A stretch of 21,164 bases of DNA from IMG/VR virus record IMGVR_UViG_3300033553_000352, positions 1 to 21,164 of that record; one strand, written 5' to 3'. This DNA comes from a virus. Position numbers and translations under genes: made by a program. Positions 5,735 through 15,261 of this stretch are shown piece after piece. The first letter of the stretch is position 1; the number at the start of each line of letters is the position of its first letter. The notes beneath the pieces were generated by a model. The model ran no database searches. It was not told the origin of the DNA and worked only from the letters and a program-made list of their open reading frames with translations.

Positions 5735-6192
5735 TATCTCCAGTTTAATTCCACCTTAGTTGTAGTATTAATAGCTGTACCTTTTGTAAACCATTCGGTG
5801 GTAATGGTCGCTAACATACTCGCAACCTCTCTCGCAGTACCTCCCATAAATCCTCTATTATAGGCTGATTTATAACTTAACGGTACAGCTGGACTAATTG
5901 CCGCAAATTCCGGTAGCATACCTATTGCTAATTGATTCGCAAATTCCGTTACCGCTTTCTCCATTATCAGAACATCGTCTGAGAAGTCAACGCTCAATAA
6001 TCTCTTCCGCATAATCTCTTTAGCTAATCCGGTAGTTTTTGGAATAGGATACAATCCCATAGAATATTTAAAAAAAGCCATACTCCATCTTGAGGCTGCT
6101 TCTTCTCTGCTTCTTGGAAAACCTTCAAAATCTCTAAATTTTGGGTCTGAGATTTTCCTTATCTCGTTTACTAAAATCTCTGTGTTTAGCAT
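5734..6192 (-). CDS. Hypothetical baseplate-cluster protein
   Basis: 152 residues, with no function recognised. The N-terminal half is helical and charged (RSREEAASRWSMAFFKYSMGL at residues 27-47). The C-terminal half has small-residue-rich segments (AISPAVPLSYKSAYNRGFMGG, then REVASMLATITTEWFTKGTAINTTTKVELNWR), which look like a short helix pair followed by a beta strand. No signal peptide, transmembrane helix or catalytic motif is visible. It is coupled by TAATG overlaps to the spike-like gene before it and the tube-initiator-like gene after it, so it is very likely a virion or assembly protein of the baseplate. Alternatives such as a chaperone cannot be excluded. Confidence 0.6.
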   Translation of the reverse strand: MLNTEILVNEIRKISDPKFRDFEGFPRSREEAASRWSMAFFKYSMGLYPIPKTTGLAKEIMRKRLLSVDFSDDVLIMEKAVTEFANQLAIGMLPEFAAISPAVPLSYKSAYNRGFMGGTAREVASMLATITTEWFTKGTAINTTTKVELNWR

Positions 6193-7100
6193 TAGTCTGT
6201 GTTTGAAAGATTAGACAAAAAATCCTTAAATTTATTCCTGACTTTAGTAAATTGTATTTGATTAATCCTAGTACCACTTGGTCCAAAGGCAGTCGGTACA
6301 GTCATAGCTGCTAACGCATCATCGAACTCTTCTAAAATCGATAACAGCTTATTTCCTAGCACTAGCTGTTCTTTTCCATCCCCCAGATTTATCTTTTTTG
6401 ATTTATCTGCCCTTATCTCAACTTTCTCTTCGCTTATGATTACTTTATTCTCAAATTCATCTTCGTATCGGTAGCGCTCAGATTTTAGTGGGCTAAGGCG
6501 TATTTTCCCCTTGACCACTCCGTTCTTATCGGTCACCACGTGTTCTATTCTTTCTGAAGAGGCATATATGATTTCCTTGCTCGCTTTAGCTAATATTTTT
6601 CCATTTACTTTTATTTTGAAAATAGCTTCAGCATCAGGATTACTTAATTCAATATCAAATATCATAGGCTTATCAACCCCATTACCGGAAATTGATATAC
6701 GTCCATTTTTAGCGTCCAAATCAAAATCAACTATATTTTCTCCATCCGTCAACGTATCTCTTCGCCTATTCTCCCCCAGAGAAAAATAATCTTCATCGTA
6801 TTTTATGCACGCAATTACAATAGGCTCATTATGTTTAGGAATATTAATCCAGACAACCGGACTTCCCATTTCACCGGACTTCTTTGGAAATTTAATTCGT
6901 TGTAAAGTTTCCCTATCGATTAATATGTTATAGAAATTACTGTGGCTATAACCTCCATAAATAGAAATTCTGCCGCTGCTGTAAACGTCCTGTTTATATT
7001 CCTCAATATCTATATTTTCTGGAATAATAACATACCCAACTCCCGCAGAAAGATTTCCGCTAATTCCCTTAACTCCTAGTATGTTCTTATTTTTATTCAT
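6192..7100 (-). CDS. Baseplate spike/central puncturing protein (gpV/gp5-like)
   Basis: 302 residues if it starts at the ATG at 7100-7098, which overlaps the previous stop as ATGAATAA. A TTG start eight codons upstream is possible but would lengthen the overlap to 32 bases. Residues ~60-100 (GSPVVWINIPKH and flanking strands) look like an OB-type N-terminal domain. Residues ~110-235 are beta-rich with repeated short motifs (GRISISGNG, VVKGKIRLS, EVKIRA-like strands), the pattern of a triple-stranded beta spike. The C-terminus carries NLGDGKEQLVLGNKLLSIL, then TAFGPSGTRINQIQF and a final helix, which matches the C-terminal region of gpV-type spikes (P2 gpV, Mu gp45). It follows the hub genes, as expected for the spike that sits at the tip. 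Confidence is moderate to good. Confidence 0.65.
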   Translation of the reverse strand: MNKNKNILGVKGISGNLSAGVGYVIIPENIDIEEYKQDVYSSGRISIYGGYSHSNFYNILIDRETLQRIKFPKKSGEMGSPVVWINIPKHNEPIVIACIKYDEDYFSLGENRRRDTLTDGENIVDFDLDAKNGRISISGNGVDKPMIFDIELSNPDAEAIFKIKVNGKILAKASKEIIYASSERIEHVVTDKNGVVKGKIRLSPLKSERYRYEDEFENKVIISEEKVEIRADKSKKINLGDGKEQLVLGNKLLSILEEFDDALAAMTVPTAFGPSGTRINQIQFTKVRNKFKDFLSNLSNTD

Positions 7101-9147
7101 TACCAAATTGCTTTCTATTAACAAAGAATTGAAAAACTTTATCGTTAACCTTCCAATTTACCGCATCCGTTTCAACCATCGTTTCTACTTCCTTTTCATA
7201 TTCCTCCATAATGAATAAACAGTGGCGTTGGTAGGCTTTAGTTTTTGCCCCTTTTATATCGGTATTGAAAACCTGTTCTGAATCCAATTGGTTTCCTTCT
7301 ATATCAAGTGGATTAAAAGTATCACTACCAGTATCGGCTTTAGTGAATATTACGCTCTCTAGCTCAGCCTTATTCCTATCAGAATATTTTTTCAAATAAG
7401 CTTCTATTATAATTTGCTTACTTGTTTCGGCTCTACTTTTTGCTAATCTAGATTTATCAACTCCAACTTCATCATCTACATATCCAGTACAAGTGAATTC
7501 TTTAGCTTGAGGATTTTCCCTAATTAATATCAATGAAGCTTCTATACTCCTTTTGTTATTCCGGTCTAAGATATTTCGCATATCTGGAAAGGATTCTATA
7601 AGGTTTCGCATTTTCAAATCATCATTCGAACCACCTTCAAATTCATCCGTTAAATTTACCGTGTAGCTTTTACCGCTATCAAAATAAAAAGTTGGTCCAC
7701 CCCTCTTGCTAACTTTCTCTTTGTACTTTACGTTTTGAGGCTCTGGTTGAGTGAAATTGATTAAGTTGAAATATCCTATCGTGTCGCTATTCTTTGGGGC
7801 AAGAGTGTATTCTATTTTCATACCTCTACTAACTTGCAGAATTGTAATTATTTCGCTTCCTTGGTCGCCTGAAGAATATCTAGTTGAAACCGCATCTACA
7901 TAAAACTCTTCGCCTGTGGGGTGGTAGAAAATTTTAAATCCTCTTTTGATATTAGTTGTTCCGGCTATCGTAATTGTTCCTTGTCGGGTGAACGGCAAAT
8001 ACATATTACTCTCCACCATATACCTTAAATCTTCTAAGGCTTTTTTATACATATTACTATTCCCTTTAATCTTCGTGAAGTTCAAATAATTGCTTACTTG
8101 AATGTTCGGTTTACTTCCCCAGATTTCCGCATACTCTTCGAAAAATACTGAAGTAATATAAGCAAAGATTAAATTTTGCTCTCCTAAAAATGAACCTTTA
8201 GGAATAATTTGAAACCAAGAAAAAACTTGTCCATCATACCAATTTAAATCATCGCTCAAAACCTCATCGTCAAATATCCTTCTAACCTCCGGTAATTTCG
8301 TCCAACCGTTATAATCAAACGGCTCTTTTCTGACAAAAAAGTAATATTGGTCTTTTACCGTATCTCCATAGAATTGCAACCAAGGTTCTTGAACTACTTT
8401 ATTTATGTAGTTTATTAAGCTTCCCTGCGCATAAGCAATTGACGCATCGTTTACACTTTGACTTAGTGAGTATTGGTCGGCCACTAGTTTCACTATTTGC
8501 CATATCCCCACCGCTTTCTTTTTCTCTATTCTCGTGATTGACCTCTTTATGGGTTTTTCCTTCTTTTCGGTTTCTGTTTCGCTTTCTGAGATTAATGATT
8601 TTCCGATTTCCGTTTGCCATTCGTCTTTTATTTTTTTAACAGTTTCTTTTACTTTCTTCCGGTCTAATTCTGAAAATAATACATAGCTATTTTCATCGGT
8701 CTTTCCGGCTTTTTGGGCGTTCAATAAATCTAGTACCCTAACTTTATTATAATCAAAGTGGTGCATTTCTAACTTATTGACGCTCCCTAACCAACGTAAA
8801 CCGTATTTGGCTGCGATTGGTTTTAGCTTCTTATAAGTATCATATTGCCCAGTTCGCAAGAACATTTCCTGCTCTTCATCGTAAACATAGATGTCTATTG
8901 CTAATCCGTAATTATGGTAACTACTGCCCGGTTTGGCAGCTGGTATCTCGCTTATTCCGGTAGCGTATGCTGAAAATAATTGAGATTGAAGGTCAAAGCT
9001 TCTATAACCAGAATAAATCCAAACTGGTATTCCTGACTCTTCGCAGTCGAAAATAAATTTTGTGAAGATAGTCCTAACTTCAGGGTGAAGCGTGTTTATT
9101 TCGTCAGTATTATTGGCGCTAGCGTTTTGTAAGTTCCTAGTTCTCAT
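7093..9147 (-). CDS. Baseplate hub protein fused to M15 peptidase and OmpA-like domain
   Basis: 684 residues with three parts. (1) Residues ~20-145 are a zinc D,D-/L,D-peptidase of the M15/VanY-Ply500 type: SGYRS at 46-50, SSYHNYGLAID at 75-85 (H78 and D85 as zinc ligands) and EMHHF at 127-131 (E127 catalytic, H130 third ligand). This would cleave peptidoglycan stem peptides at the tail tip. (2) A charged linker, ~160-212, leads to a beta-rich hub region, ~215-445. It ends with QGTITIAGTTNI, FKIFYHPTGEEFYVDAV and ITILQVSRG, typical of gp27/gpD-type hub C-terminal domains. (3) Residues ~485-640 resemble an OmpA C-terminal peptidoglycan-binding domain: a long helix, then FTCTGYVDDE, then RLAKSRAETSKQIIIEAYL. 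TAA of the upstream gene and the ATG here are adjacent (TAAATG). The first two parts are well supported and the third is moderately supported. Confidence 0.85.
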   Translation of the reverse strand: MRTRNLQNASANNTDEINTLHPEVRTIFTKFIFDCEESGIPVWIYSGYRSFDLQSQLFSAYATGISEIPAAKPGSSYHNYGLAIDIYVYDEEQEMFLRTGQYDTYKKLKPIAAKYGLRWLGSVNKLEMHHFDYNKVRVLDLLNAQKAGKTDENSYVLFSELDRKKVKETVKKIKDEWQTEIGKSLISESETETEKKEKPIKRSITRIEKKKAVGIWQIVKLVADQYSLSQSVNDASIAYAQGSLINYINKVVQEPWLQFYGDTVKDQYYFFVRKEPFDYNGWTKLPEVRRIFDDEVLSDDLNWYDGQVFSWFQIIPKGSFLGEQNLIFAYITSVFFEEYAEIWGSKPNIQVSNYLNFTKIKGNSNMYKKALEDLRYMVESNMYLPFTRQGTITIAGTTNIKRGFKIFYHPTGEEFYVDAVSTRYSSGDQGSEIITILQVSRGMKIEYTLAPKNSDTIGYFNLINFTQPEPQNVKYKEKVSKRGGPTFYFDSGKSYTVNLTDEFEGGSNDDLKMRNLIESFPDMRNILDRNNKRSIEASLILIRENPQAKEFTCTGYVDDEVGVDKSRLAKSRAETSKQIIIEAYLKKYSDRNKAELESVIFTKADTGSDTFNPLDIEGNQLDSEQVFNTDIKGAKTKAYQRHCLFIMEEYEKEVETMVETDAVNWKVNDKVFQFFVNRKQFGNE

Positions 9148-10599
9148 TTAGTCTAAATCTTCATTTATATCTTCTTCCTCTACATCTTCAACCTCATAAA
9201 TTGGTACGGTAAATTCCGTGCGCTTTTCTCCATAGTAAGCAAATAAATCGCTATAACAAATTTCAATATTCGACAACCTACTCATCAAAAGGTTCATAAT
9301 AAAGTTCACATTTCTAGCTTCAGGATTAAAAAGCATATCAATCATTCCGGTAGTTATCAACCTATTTATTCCGGCTTGACCTCCTTCGGCTTGAACTATA
9401 TTTAGCGCATTATTACCATCCCCTCTATTCGGCAAATCTACGTTGCTGAATGCTGAGTTTGTATTATCTGGATTAGCAAAACTTTTAGTAAAAAAGTAAC
9501 TTCCATCCTCTATTAATAATTTCATACAATCTCTTCCTGATATGGATATTTCTGAGGAAGAGTTTTCAAACGAATTACTTATTTGATTTGAATCCACTAA
9601 TCCTATCATCTGCCAATCTCTATTTTGTAAATTAGAATGATTAACAAAAAAGTCATCCACATACTCTATTTCTTCGTGGTCGGAAAAAGAAATAAATATC
9701 AAATCATTTTCGGCTATTATATTTTTGAATAAGGCTTCTGTTCTATTGAAAGAATAGTTATCTGCAGTGGCGCTGAAATCCCTATCTCTCGCATTAACAT
9801 TATTCGTATCTACAGATTGATATCTTTTACCGTATGTATCTCCAAAATCATAAGATTTTCTAAATCCCATTTTATTTAGGATTTTCTTGAAAGCATAGTT
9901 TTCTTCGCTATCCTTATTGAATTTTAGATAAGCAGATTTTTCAGGGTGCCATATTCCTTCCGGCACTCCATCTGCCATATTGATTATCCCTTCTATTGGT
10001 AATAAGCTTATATTAAAATTGCCGCCTGATTCGGTTTGATTTATACTTAAGTTATCTATGAAAGGTGTTAAGTTGAAAAGTGAATTAGGATTAAAAACTC
10101 CATCTTCATTTAAACTCTTGCTCCATAACCAAACTAAAGGTTTTGGGCTTTGTCTTTTATTACTCCCAAAATTTGAGCTGCGATTATCTCTTTTAAAATT
10201 CTCCTTTATTATATCTTCATAAAAAACATTTTCCCTAATTATAAAACTAGATTCCGCACCCTTTTTAAACTCTATGACTTGCGTATTATCCGCTAACACA
10301 TTCCCTTGGCTGAAAAGAATATCCTTATCAACCTTAGTGGCATCCGCAAATAATATCATAGGAATAGGACAGGGCATACTAGGCTCTATCTGTTCGGCTG
10401 TAGTTATATTTAAGCTCAATCTACTTTCATCAGAATAATTCAAGAATATAAAATCACGGTTGGAATATCCACCTTTGCTTTTCTTTACGCCTAAAAAGTC
10501 CTCATCCGTCATACGGATTTTAAAAAACTTCCGTACTTCAGAAATTGGTGTTTTATATCCTAATTCTCCGTTATATTGTATCTCTATTATTTTACTCAT
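9148..10599 (-). CDS. Baseplate hub protein, N-terminal half of a split hub
   Basis: 483 residues starting at ATG 10599-10597 (MSKIIEIQYNGELG), preceded by GGAGGAA and overlapping the tape-measure stop by eight bases (ATGAGTAA). A TTG start 13 codons upstream would overlap the tape measure by 47 bases and is less likely. The region after the tape measure, together with SEISISGRDCMKLLIEDGSYFF and strands such as IDNLSINQTESGGNFNISLLP, resembles the 'G/SGRD...K.L' element of gp27/gpD-type hub proteins that form the ring under the tube. The C-terminus is acidic (EVEDVEEEDINEDLD), which may be a flexible tail. The following gene carries the other hub half, so the hub appears split into two coupled proteins. 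The hub assignment is inferred from pattern and position. Confidence 0.6.
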   Translation of the reverse strand: MSKIIEIQYNGELGYKTPISEVRKFFKIRMTDEDFLGVKKSKGGYSNRDFIFLNYSDESRLSLNITTAEQIEPSMPCPIPMILFADATKVDKDILFSQGNVLADNTQVIEFKKGAESSFIIRENVFYEDIIKENFKRDNRSSNFGSNKRQSPKPLVWLWSKSLNEDGVFNPNSLFNLTPFIDNLSINQTESGGNFNISLLPIEGIINMADGVPEGIWHPEKSAYLKFNKDSEENYAFKKILNKMGFRKSYDFGDTYGKRYQSVDTNNVNARDRDFSATADNYSFNRTEALFKNIIAENDLIFISFSDHEEIEYVDDFFVNHSNLQNRDWQMIGLVDSNQISNSFENSSSEISISGRDCMKLLIEDGSYFFTKSFANPDNTNSAFSNVDLPNRGDGNNALNIVQAEGGQAGINRLITTGMIDMLFNPEARNVNFIMNLLMSRLSNIEICYSDLFAYYGEKRTEFTVPIYEVEDVEEEDINEDLD

Positions 10600-12508
10600 T
10601 TCCTCCGGTATGGTAAGTGTTACCTCTCGTTGGGGCAACCGCTTTCGTTTTATCTTTAACTATATTTACATTAACGCTATCTTCGCTCATTGCTCCACTA
10701 AAGAATTGTAGAATTTGGTCAATCATACCTTGTGAACGGTTTCCAAAATCATTCATCGCTTCGGTTATCATCCCATATCCTGAACTAGCTTCGGTCATCA
10801 TAGTATCTTCGTCCAGCGTGGATTTTCTAGCTTTCATTCCGGCTAATCCTTTTCCACTAAGAAGTTTTTGAAAATCTCCACCTTTCATAGCTTTCTTATA
10901 CATTTCCATATCCGCTTCGCTTTCTGGATTGAAAAACGAATAAAGCAAATCATCTTGAGCCATTTCGTTACCTTCCGTCATACCTCCAGCCATTTTGAAG
11001 AACTCCGACATATATTCTGGGTTGTCTGAATTAAATCTAACTAAACGCCTTAAAGCTGCTGGGTCATTCGCTAAATCCGGTCTTGCTCTTTTTGCCGCTT
11101 CTAACTTTAACATCATCAAATTATCGCTTCCCCCTTCTCCTAATCCTTGTATGGTTTGACTTAAGAAATTTCCGGCTTTTTCTCCTTTTCCGGACAAGCC
11201 TACACTTTCGAATGCGGAAAGAATTTGTAAAGATGCGTCACTGTCCACGCTATCTCTTTTGGCTCTCTGAAGAGAAAGTATTGTATTTTGAGCTGCTAAT
11301 TTTTCTGTTAGGGTTGAAAGGTCGGTTTCCTTAAGTGAACTTTTTTCTATGGAAGTTAAAACGTTCAAAACGTTCATCGCTATTTCGGTGGCATCTTCTT
11401 GACCTTTTGTAAATCTCTCGAATTGGGAAAATTGTCCGGCATCACCTCCAAAAGCTTTCTTAAAGGCATCATCTTCTATCGTTCTTCCAACTAGGTCTTT
11501 TCCGGCTATTCCGCTTGCTAAGGCTTTTTCTCTCATCATCGCAGCAACGTCCGTATTTTTTAATCCTAAAGAACCAAAGTCAAATCTCCCATCCGCTCCA
11601 AGGTCACCATTTATATCCCTTAAGCTTAAGTTAGTTTGTGCGTTTGTTGCTCCTGAACCTCTAAAGGCTGAAACTGGCGCTAGTGCTTCCTCTAAGCTTT
11701 CACCGTGACCAATGGTTTCTTTTAGTATCATAGCCACTAGTCCGGCTATCGTGAAACCTTTAACCGCTCCGGTTAATGCTCCACCAGCTTGTAAACCTCC
11801 TTGTACGGTTCCCATTAGGTCACCACGTCCAGCTGAAGCTAAAGTTCCTCCAACCTCTCTGAATCCAAATTCACCATCATCCCCTTCTTGGTCACCGCTT
11901 CTTAGGTTTCTAATCCTAGCATTATTCGCTTCTATTTCCGATTGAAGTCTTGCTACTTCCTCTTCATCATCTGAACCTAATTGTTGTCGCCTTAATTCCG
12001 CATTCTGTTGAGAAAGTCCTCCAACTAAACCGCCTGACTTAAATTCTGCGTTATCTATTTGTCTGCGCTCTCTTTCGATTTTTGAATCTTGGGTCATTTC
12101 CTTGTAAATGTCCCGCAAGGTTTGGTTCATTTCTTTTTCAACCTCCAGAATTTCACTGTTTTCTAAGCCAGTTAATTCTTTTTGGTTTACTTGAAATTCT
12201 GCCTTATACTTATCAAAAGATTGTTTATTGATTTCACCGCTCTTGAACTTATCCTCTATTTCGGAAAAGTCAGAAACATTATTACTCCGCAAATCAGAGT
12301 AGTCACTACGAATTTGTTCTTTTTGGTGTCTAAGAGTATCATCGCCAATTTTGCCGACTGCTACTTTCTTTTCGGTTGAAGTTAAATCTGAAAGGTTGTT
12401 GAGTTCTGAAATATCCCTTCCAAGTTCTTGAGCCTTTTGTCTTAGTGAATCTAACTGATTCCCCAGTCCGTCATCCCTTCCTCTAATATTAATGCTAACA
12501 TCTGACAT
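10592..12508 (-). CDS. Tape measure protein
   Basis: 638 residues, placed directly after the tube and tail-assembly-chaperone ORFs and before the hub, the conserved position of the tape measure. Residues 1-210 are mostly coiled-coil or charged helix (repeated K/E/Q-rich heptad-like runs, e.g. ELRRQQLG and EEVARLQSEIEANNARIR). Residues ~218-268 are a small-residue/hydrophobic segment (GALTGAVKGFTIAGLVAMIL) typical of the membrane-active or folded central region. The rest alternates helix and Gly/Ser-rich linkers (KGEKAGNFLSQ, GLGEGGSDN). In the family it sets tail length and is released at infection. At about 1.5 Angstrom per residue, 638 residues predict a tail of very roughly 95 nm, an estimate only. 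The start at 12508 lies inside a 13-base palindrome region. It is short for a myovirus tape measure. Confidence 0.8.
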   Translation of the reverse strand: MSDVSINIRGRDDGLGNQLDSLRQKAQELGRDISELNNLSDLTSTEKKVAVGKIGDDTLRHQKEQIRSDYSDLRSNNVSDFSEIEDKFKSGEINKQSFDKYKAEFQVNQKELTGLENSEILEVEKEMNQTLRDIYKEMTQDSKIERERRQIDNAEFKSGGLVGGLSQQNAELRRQQLGSDDEEEVARLQSEIEANNARIRNLRSGDQEGDDGEFGFREVGGTLASAGRGDLMGTVQGGLQAGGALTGAVKGFTIAGLVAMILKETIGHGESLEEALAPVSAFRGSGATNAQTNLSLRDINGDLGADGRFDFGSLGLKNTDVAAMMREKALASGIAGKDLVGRTIEDDAFKKAFGGDAGQFSQFERFTKGQEDATEIAMNVLNVLTSIEKSSLKETDLSTLTEKLAAQNTILSLQRAKRDSVDSDASLQILSAFESVGLSGKGEKAGNFLSQTIQGLGEGGSDNLMMLKLEAAKRARPDLANDPAALRRLVRFNSDNPEYMSEFFKMAGGMTEGNEMAQDDLLYSFFNPESEADMEMYKKAMKGGDFQKLLSGKGLAGMKARKSTLDEDTMMTEASSGYGMITEAMNDFGNRSQGMIDQILQFFSGAMSEDSVNVNIVKDKTKAVAPTRGNTYHTGGNE

Positions 12509-12521
12509 CTAAAGTCTTTAG
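12509..12521. promoter_or_regulatory. Small palindrome just upstream of tape measure start
   Basis: CTAAAGTCTTTAG on the plus strand is a perfect 6+1+6 inverted repeat covering the last codon and stop of the second chaperone ORF and abutting the tape-measure ATG. It could form a small hairpin hiding the ribosome-binding region, or be chance. The stem is A/T-rich and weak. Confidence 0.25.
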
Positions 12522-12799
12522 TTAGTAATATCTGAAAAAGAGAAATTCTCAAAATCTGAATCGATTTCTTTTTGGGATAGTTTGGGAGTTGGAACTAATT
12601 CCGGCTCGTCAGATTTTTCGGTAAGTTCACGCATCATACGCTCTTCCTCATAATCCCTCGCCATATCCAAAAAGGTAGCACTACGGTGTTGTGCGCTACC
12701 AAATGGGATATTATATTTTTTACGCCAGTAATAATCTAAAGGAAAAGAATTATTCCAATGGATTATCTCATTCCGTATCTTCTCCTTCAGTTTGTTCAT
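12518..12799 (-). CDS. Tail assembly chaperone, second ORF (GT-like)
   Basis: 93 residues beginning MNKLKEKIRNEIIHWNNSF. The segment PLDYYWRKKYNIPFGSAQHR followed by FLDMARDYEEERMM resembles the short second ORF found between tube and tape-measure genes in many tailed phages, there often made by ribosomal frameshifting as the GT-type chaperone. Its frame overlaps the first chaperone ORF by 32 bases and is offset +1 (equivalently -2) from it, not -1. I see no canonical slippery heptamer in the shared stretch. Its own ATG at 12799-12797 is preceded by purine-rich AAGAAG, so independent, coupled translation is possible. A chaperone role in recruiting the tape measure is inferred from position and family resemblance. 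Confidence 0.7.
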   Translation of the reverse strand: MNKLKEKIRNEIIHWNNSFPLDYYWRKKYNIPFGSAQHRSATFLDMARDYEEERMMRELTEKSDEPELVPTPKLSQKEIDSDFENFSFSDITN

Positions 12800-13142
12800 C
12801 TTCTTGGTCGTACTTATATAAATCTTCGATTAAAGGCTTGAACCAAGGTATAAACTGTTTCTTGAAAGTATGTATTAGTTCCTTCGCTAAAATCGGTGAT
12901 ATGTCTCTCCAATTTTTTACTCCTAAGTCAACTTTTAATTCCGGTATAAGCACGGAAAGATAAGCAACGGCATCGGTAGTATCTAAGGCAAAATTATGGA
13001 TTTTTAAAGTACTCATCGACATATCGACATACTTTCCATTTGTGTACGCTATTTTAAAGGATTCAATATCCATTAATTGTCCAACGGTTGGGAAGGCTAC
13101 CAAATAAGCCTTCCCTTTCACCGTAATATTTTGTTTTTCCAT
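12768..13142 (-). CDS. Tail assembly chaperone, first ORF (G-like)
   Basis: 124 residues beginning MEKQNITVKGKAYLVAFPTVGQ. FPTVGQLMDIESFKIAYTNG and the ALDTTDAVAYLSVLIPEL segment are the recognisable pattern of the G-like chaperone preceding the tape measure in this tube-chaperone-tape arrangement. The C-terminal half is helical (LAKELIHTFKKQFIPWFKPL), ending in an acidic tail (DQEDEQTEGEDTE). The upstream tube gene ends at 13161 and the gap is 18 bases. The coding sequence contains a perfect 9-base-pair inverted repeat near codons 10-18. The stop lies 32 bases inside the second chaperone ORF. Chaperones of this kind are not in the virion. They coat the tape measure during tail assembly. Confidence 0.78.
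   Translation of the reverse strand: MEKQNITVKGKAYLVAFPTVGQLMDIESFKIAYTNGKYVDMSMSTLKIHNFALDTTDAVAYLSVLIPELKVDLGVKNWRDISPILAKELIHTFKKQFIPWFKPLIEDLYKYDQEDEQTEGEDTE
13090..13115 (-). promoter_or_regulatory. GC-rich hairpin inside first chaperone gene
   Basis: GGGAAGGCT and AGCCTTCCC form a perfect 9-base-pair stem with an 8-base loop (positions 13090-13098 and 13107-13115), within the first codons of the chaperone gene and about 45 bases after the tube gene stop. No U-run follows in the transcribed direction, so it is not a classical terminator. It may slow RNA polymerase, block exonuclease or modulate translation between the abundant tube and the scarce chaperone. It is also constrained by coding, so it may be chance. 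Confidence 0.35.
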
Positions 13143-13656: not shown

Positions 13657-15261
13657 TTATAGGTTGGTGTCTAACATAAATCCAGTAACAAATAATTTGT
13701 TAATTGGGCCATTCGGTACATAGTTGTAATTGATTGCGTAACTTCCTTGAGAAAGTTCTACGGTTATGTTTTCCGATTTAATAATAAGCGTGCTCTCTCC
13801 ATCACCCTTACTAGATTTTGAAAGTAAATAACTCTCCACAAAACTTTTTACATCCTCTCTAGTTACTCTTCCTCTATTACCACCTACAAATAAAGGTCTT
13901 AGATTTAAAATCAATTCCTTATTTAGTTGCGCTCCTATACTCATTATAGAAATTTCAAAAGAAGTTCCATCAGGAAGTATTTCTTGGTTGCTGTTATTTT
14001 GAAGGGTGTTTATACCTTGGTTAACTACGTTACCCATTCCAACAACGTTCCGGCTATGTAGTACTCCAGCTTGAAGCGCTTTAACTCGCTCCTTAACAGT
14101 TAACTCGTGAATGAAGTTGTCTATCCTTAAGCTTTTGAAAGTAATTGGCTCTTCAGGCGCTAATCCACCTAATCTACCAGCTACGTTAGCAGCGTGATAA
14201 ATCGCTGGAAGTTCAATCGTTCTTCCGGTCGTATTATCAATTCTGAAATTTCCACCGTGAACTACTATTACTCTGGCGCTATCGTAAGATTTTGCCGTAT
14301 CCATTGAGAGTTGTAATTGAGTGTCGTCAATTCCGGCTCCAACGATTAAAAATTTATCAAATTCTGAATCAGTTAGAATATGGTCCAATATTTTTAGATT
14401 GCTTGCGTTTCCAGCATCCGCTCCATAATCGGTAGATAAAAAGAAAGTGTTCCCAAATTCCCTTACCGCTTCTAGGACTAAATCTAATGCTGCTGGAGTA
14501 TAAGTTTCAGTTCCACCTGTAGCTAATTTTAAAGATACTACGTCACCCGCAACAATTGCTCCGGCAACCGCTCCGCCAGTAGCTAATTTGAAAGCTTTGT
14601 TTAGTGAGTTATCGGTTTGAGCCCAAGTTATCAATTCTTCAATTGTACTAATTGAAGGTGATTGAGCTACTTTTACAGATTTAACAATTTCTTTGCTTAA
14701 TCTTCCGTAAATATAACCTCCAGTGGTTTCACCGCTATAAGTACCTTGGAAAAATTCTACTACGAATTTTGCTGGGTCTTCATCGCTAACTCTAACCGTT
14801 GCAGCATATCCTTTATAGATATCATCCGCAGCAGTATTTTTAACTCCATTTCCAACAGTTCCTTCGTTTTTAGCTATAAAGGTTACATTCCCTATTGCTC
14901 CAAAGGTTAAAGCTATTTTTGCCGCAGTAGTGTCTGCCGCTCTTACTATCGATACAGATTGTGGGGCACCTGCACCTCTAAGTGGGTTGAAGATATATTC
15001 CGAATAATCCCAGATTTCACCACCTTTCATAAAATTCCTAAAGTCGCTTAATCCGTCAAAGGAATAAACTGAATTCAAACCCTTAGCAAGCTCACCGTTT
15101 ATTCCGGCTCCACCGCCCCAACCAGCACCTTTTCCGGTATCGATTAAAAGGACATTACCGAATGGGAAATTGCTTGGCTTAATAGTAGTGGCTCCTTTAG
15201 TTTGGGCGTACACCCCTGGCTCCACTATTCTCTTGCTGCCGAAATTAACTTCTATGCTCAT
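13657..15261 (-). CDS. Contractile tail sheath protein
   Basis: 534 residues. The N-terminal RIVEPGVYAQTKG with GNVLLIDTG is the typical sheath start that threads into a neighbouring subunit. The conserved C-terminal region, ~380-534, contains FIHELTVKERVKALQAGVLHS, then NLRPLFVGGNRGRVTREDVKSFVESYLL and ELSQGSYAINYNYVPNGPINKLFVTGFML, matching the core domain of contractile tail sheaths. Residues ~115-260 (TTGGYIYG, SAGATGG-like Gly/Ala-rich strands) are likely the surface-exposed variable insertion. It sits in front of the tube gene and after the tail-terminator-like and neck genes. It is the reason to call this phage a myovirus type. Strong evidence. Confidence 0.93.
   Translation of the reverse strand: MSIEVNFGSKRIVEPGVYAQTKGATTIKPSNFPFGNVLLIDTGKGAGWGGGAGINGELAKGLNSVYSFDGLSDFRNFMKGGEIWDYSEYIFNPLRGAGAPQSVSIVRAADTTAAKIALTFGAIGNVTFIAKNEGTVGNGVKNTAADDIYKGYAATVRVSDEDPAKFVVEFFQGTYSGETTGGYIYGRLSKEIVKSVKVAQSPSISTIEELITWAQTDNSLNKAFKLATGGAVAGAIVAGDVVSLKLATGGTETYTPAALDLVLEAVREFGNTFFLSTDYGADAGNASNLKILDHILTDSEFDKFLIVGAGIDDTQLQLSMDTAKSYDSARVIVVHGGNFRIDNTTGRTIELPAIYHAANVAGRLGGLAPEEPITFKSLRIDNFIHELTVKERVKALQAGVLHSRNVVGMGNVVNQGINTLQNNSNQEILPDGTSFEISIMSIGAQLNKELILNLRPLFVGGNRGRVTREDVKSFVESYLLSKSSKGDGESTLIIKSENITVELSQGSYAINYNYVPNGPINKLFVTGFMLDTNL

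Follow-up and report, generated by a model that had tools for sequence, protein, structure and literature searches.

The best-known fusions of tail hubs with hydrolases belong to machines directed at the thick walls of Gram-positive bacteria. SPO1 gp12.1 and the Herelleviridae hubs (phi812 chain E/ORF56, Deep-Blue Gp189 and Vp4 Gp110) belong to phages of Gram-positive hosts, and each is a single chain in which peptidoglycan hydrolases are fused to a core that is homologous to, or matches in fold, the hub described below. The C-terminal part of these hubs is NlpC/P60 and 3D in SPO1 and an annotated C51 peptidase domain in phi812, and no OmpA-like domain was found in SPO1 gp12.1. Deep-Blue Gp189 and Vp4 Gp110 were reported to be bacteriolytic (PMC11406892). 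A gp27-like hub is likewise fused to wall-cutting domains in diffocin CD1368, a bacteriocin with a Gram-positive target, for which two hydrolases and no OmpA-like binding domain were described (PMC10996793). The Deep-Blue, Vp4 and diffocin proteins are a precedent for action on the wall by hubs of this kind. OmpA, Pal, MotB and TagL domains anchor the envelope machines of the cell itself. The pocket of OmpA, Pal and TagL grips diaminopimelate (DAP). In TagL, DAP was contacted by Asp486, Asn494, Leu497 and Arg501, and alteration of Asn494, Leu497 or Arg501 abolished wall binding (PMC8253398).

The window analysed here, 21,164 bases in length, is a complete virus record, and all of its genes and domains given below with coordinates lie on the minus strand. 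Its gene block included an SU10-like major capsid protein, a tail sheath protein (13657-15261; phrog_279, E 2e-29), a baseplate J-type wedge and another baseplate protein, and the sheath gene indicates a contractile tail. A frame of 684 codons with an ATG start occupied 7093-9147, and no such frame was present on the plus strand. The encoded protein consisted of an M15 peptidase, the C-terminal half of a hub, an OmpA-like domain and a hub tail, and the three parts named in the earlier note (peptidase, hub-like core and OmpA-like domain) were all real. The reading favoured here, with a probability of roughly 0.6, is that the wall would be opened by an endopeptidase of the L-Ala-D-Glu type while the tail-tip hub grips stem peptides, as judged from sequence, models and analogy. 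The full-length model had a mean pLDDT of 83 and a pTM of 0.50, at which the placement of the domains relative to one another is not trustworthy.

The gene downstream (6192-7124, likely start ATG at 7100) is a candidate central spike protein by its position. It was a neighbour conserved in the relatives, and no match was found for it among solved structures. The ORF of 638 aa that lies immediately upstream of the hub (10592-12508) is a candidate tape measure protein by gene order. Two short ORFs just upstream of the latter (12768-13142 and 12518-12799) overlapped in different frames. Tail assembly chaperones are usually encoded at this position (12518-13142); the overlap contained no obvious slippery site. 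The host is likely a member of the Bacteroidota, since the relatives of the hub were found in Bacteroides and Chryseobacterium phages and in Chitinophaga genome assemblies.

The M15/VanY peptidase domain covered residues 19-133 (8749-9093). It matched PF02557 over residues 19-119 with an E value of 7e-15 and 55.3 bits, and PF13539 (Peptidase_M15_4) over residues 73-133 with 27.7 bits; the cut-off was 25 in both cases. The zinc ligands (H-x6-D ... H) and the catalytic acid were present as H78, D85, E127 and H130 when aligned to PlyA500 and LysB4, and these four residues, together with H129, S46 and R49, were invariant across five homologues. The claim of an active-looking peptidase with this set of residues was thus borne out, and the zinc site, on which the claim depended, was intact. 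The VIA comparison of the M15 model gave Z values of 13.5 for PlyA500 (2vo9), 13.3 for LysB4 and 11.5 for Serratia ChiX. These were the best matches among solved structures. The fold and zinc site were as in these three enzymes, which are not tail proteins, whereas in the window the domain is part of a tail hub chain. PlyA500 and LysB4 are endolysins, and the database entries of PlyA500 and ChiX both name L-Ala-D-Glu peptidases. Hence, the domain is predicted to be able to cleave peptidoglycan stem peptides, and the L-Ala-D-Glu bond is most likely the one that it would cut. The PHROG family matched by this domain, phrog_5115, carries the label "ferredoxin", which is a probable mislabel because the family matches the M15 peptidase.

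A linker (residues 135-205, 8533-8745) led from the enzyme to the hub core, and residues 163-206 were of low confidence in the model. The C-terminal half of the hub (residues 208-465, 7753-8526) was recognised by both homology and structure, and its surroundings of sheath and baseplate genes agree with this identity. Residues 206-488 matched the hubs of cultured Bacteroidota phages, namely the Bacteroides phages DAC16/SJC03 and the Chryseobacterium phage MA9V-3 with E values down to 1e-45, and SPO1 gp12.1 with a weak tblastn match (8e-5). The hub model was aligned by VIA with chain E of the phi812 baseplate (9eug_E) at a Z of 15.6 over 231 residues, and the relatives L021 and L023 matched phrog_1015, which supports the hub family. 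SPO1 gp12.1 and the phi812-type hubs have both halves in one chain, but in the window the N-terminal half was a separate ORF at 9148-10638 (496 aa from a TTG; the ATG at 10599 is the likelier start), and its stop directly abutted the ATG of the 684-aa ORF. The two hub ORFs overlapped by one base in L002, L004 and L005. A comparison by hhalign of seven split N-terminal halves with the N-terminal parts of eight single-chain hubs gave an E value of 1.4e-53. With the upstream ORF as the N-terminal half, the hub is divided between two genes, and the second half has the peptidase fused to its N-terminus. The hub-like core proposed earlier was therefore real, but the protein carries only its second half. 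By homology and modelling, the 684-aa ORF is best described as the C-terminal half of the tail-tip hub of a contractile phage, a split relative of the SPO1 gp12.1/phi812-type hub.

The OmpA-like domain (residues 472-659, 7171-7734) was followed by a conserved hub tail (residues 663-684, 7096-7161; W-x-VN-x2-VF-x-FF-x3-RKQF). The earlier note had extended the OmpA-like part over residues 480-684; the fold was confirmed, but the limits were not, and the last 22 residues belong to the hub. A profile of eight window-type domains matched OmpA among PDB sequences at 3.3e-5, and the top seven matches were all of the OmpA family. When L021 and L023 were added, the ten-sequence profile reached 9e-9, with only OmpA/Pal/MotY-type matches. 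A four-sequence profile that ranked OmpA below a GPCR-cytochrome b562 fusion construct was regarded as noise and was superseded by the two larger profiles. The window-type set and the L021/L023 OmpA set were aligned to each other by hhalign at 4.9e-9. The AF2 model of the isolated domain had a mean pLDDT of 84.7, and the structure prediction on which the earlier note had let its claim depend recovered the beta-alpha-beta-alpha-beta fold of OmpA. All 50 Foldseek matches listed were OmpA/Pal/MotB/TagL-type, with an E value of 1.3e-5 to OprF, and VIA gave a Z of 11.7 (rmsd 2.5 over 115 residues) for Klebsiella OmpA and 11.4 for TagL. The PF00691 gathering cut-off (27.2) was exceeded at the same site by L021 (31.2) and L023 (44.2), and L017 scored 28.1 in the record search. 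No PF00691 match above that cut-off was obtained for the window domain, which is therefore classed as an OmpA-like fold and not as a PF00691 member.

A set of forty distinct hub cores was compared at two positions: site A, the start of the chain carrying the core, and site B, between the core and the C-terminal tail. Both are plug-in sites, occupied in the window by the M15 and the OmpA-like domain, respectively, and modules were gained and lost across the set. Site A held M15, M23 or lysozyme in many hubs, and site B held OmpA, NlpC/P60, M15, M23 with lysozyme, lysozyme, a transglycosylase-like domain or nothing. The hub tail was retained in hubs with other site-B domains. Because peptidoglycan hydrolases occupy site B in other hubs, this slot probably faces the wall. 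None of the forty hubs combined OmpA with a hydrolase at site B. The hubs of MA9V-3 and of the Chitinophaga contigs belong to the same Bacteroidota hub family and have a hydrolase at site B, but they are unsplit and no OmpA-like domain was found in them. The site-B domain was transglycosylase-like in MA9V-3; the four Chitinophaga genome contigs (L048, L049, L050 and L052) each had a complete single-chain hub, with M15 at site B in L048, L049 and L052. Two further arrangements were observed. In L051, a contig from a Sulfuricurvum MAG assigned to Campylobacterota, the hub was split and its site A held M23; the contig may be a mis-binned phage contig. In L028 (3865-7137), an insertion of ~280 residues (about 430-710) lay between the hub halves, where other hubs split.

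A close comparison was provided by L003, which was 70% identical to the window hub in the alignment. Exactly the OmpA module was missing from it, in frame and with the tail kept, and no such module was found elsewhere in its 97-kb record. In the tree, L003 was sister to the window (98/98) and L002 came next (85/85), and most of the deeper forks lacked resolution. Given this branching order, the state of L003 fits a loss of the module. The module is therefore dispensable in L003, and this counts against the anchor explanation to the extent that the domain is not essential for that phage.

The earlier note had left the classic binding Asp/Arg pair to be confirmed, and both residues were found: D558 and R572 aligned with the corresponding Asp and Arg in the A. 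baumannii domain that binds DAP, and with L568 they made up three of the four DAP contacts, all three invariant in ten relatives. The fourth contact, an Asn, was replaced by Lys565 in the window. This Asn was lost in most close relatives and kept in L004, L005, L021 and L023. Moreover, the loop between Asp and Arg was one residue shorter in the window domain. Both changes may reduce the affinity for DAP, and with the Asn missing, membership of the OmpA type is claimed for the fold and not as a proven binding pocket. The window domain thus shares with TagL, OmpA, Pal and MotB the fold and the Asp, Leu and Arg of the pocket, but it is part of a virus tail hub, lacks the Asn and has extra helices.

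These changes bear most directly on the main rival, in which the OmpA-like fold has been retained as a structural or protein-binding module that has ceased to bind peptidoglycan. Before firing, it might for example hold in place the spike, the wedge ring or the enzyme, and action on the wall would be left to the M15 domain alone. The lost Asn and the shortened pocket loop of the window clade agree with such a role, as does the score of the window sequence below the Pfam cut-off, and the hydrolase domain of diffocin was reported to bind the baseplate ring as well before firing (PMC10996793). However, the Asp, Leu and Arg were unchanged among domains that share only 16-40% identity with that of the window, and a purely structural role would not demand this. 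The occupation of the same slot by hydrolases in other hubs is also at odds with it. This rival is accordingly considered unlikely, and binding of peptidoglycan stem peptides, by analogy with the cellular domains, is the function that we infer for the OmpA-like domain.

The domain composition of the relatives bears on a second alternative, in which the OmpA-like domain would serve the enzyme in targeting or processivity, like the substrate-binding domain of a two-domain lysin, and not a mechanical anchor of the tail. The OmpA-like domain was present in 10 of the 40 hubs, and 13 of the 40 were split; nine of the ten OmpA-bearing hubs fell among the split ones, with L023 as the exception. Each of these nine chains had its own N-terminal domain (M15 in seven, M23 in L021 and a domain other than M15 in L011), as would be expected if the binding domain served an enzyme. 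Against this, L023 carried a canonical OmpA domain with no Pfam hydrolase in the hub or in its three scanned neighbours, and the hub core lies between the two domains in the chain. This alternative is thus judged improbable, more so than the structural one. The last alternative, that the motif TGYVDDE ... RLAKSRAETSK arose by chance in an unrelated fold, could appeal to the lack of a Pfam OmpA match for the window sequence alone, but it is rejected as barely credible, as the profiles, the structure prediction and the intermediate sequences L017, L021 and L023 all concur on the OmpA-like fold.

Some of these relatives had features of their own. The site-A domain of L011 (7003-8970, residues 1-150) had no match in Pfam, PHROG or PDB sequences and is possibly an undescribed wall hydrolase. 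The split hub chain of L021 (4978-7440) contained an M23 peptidase, the hub core and the OmpA domain, and a second stretch (residues 180-307) matched a phage tape-measure family and an endolysin family, so that two enzymes and an anchor are apparently combined in one chain. The OmpA domain of L023 gave two weak tblastn matches among annotated phages, both in unannotated records. Residues 732-858 of L023 matched phrog_7897, a phage family of unknown function. The final stretch of this family matches the L023 OmpA domain, and the family may contain further OmpA-bearing phage proteins.

For the favoured reading, in which the hub both grips and cuts, the following course is proposed. If known hubs are a guide, three copies of the hub would lie beneath the tail tube and directly on top of the spike. 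Upon sheath contraction, the tube would carry the hub and spike across the outer membrane and into the periplasm; in phage XM1, hub and spike were proposed to stay with the tube and to be driven through the envelope by contraction (PMC10457771). The OmpA-like domains would then seize stem peptides of the peptidoglycan, and the M15 domain, tethered by a flexible linker, would cut a nearby stem-peptide bond, most likely L-Ala-D-Glu. With the tip still docked, the tube would thereby gain a local opening. The idea of the earlier note that one chain may cut and hold the cell wall can soundly be inferred, and a benefit would be expected from combining stem-peptide binding with M15 cutting. On a broader proposal, our judgement is evenly divided: the phage lineage may have taken up a cellular-type OmpA peptidoglycan anchor as an exchangeable hub module, so that the injecting tip would clamp the wall that it cuts. 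The module would then be the injected-side counterpart of the TagL anchor, which holds the T6SS in its own cell.

Hub-hydrolase fusions were already known. An OmpA-like domain on a phage tail hub appears to be unreported, as a search of the open-access literature for such a domain in a phage baseplate or hub returned only T6SS anchors and unrelated papers. The hub family of Bacteroidota phages described here has hydrolase fusions together with a dedicated domain of the wall-binding type at a defined swap site. Two questions follow: whether the tip of a phage tail attaches to peptidoglycan as it injects, and whether a hydrolase and an anchor can stand in for each other at a single site. The window and L003 form a natural pair, with and without the OmpA module, that is ready for comparison.
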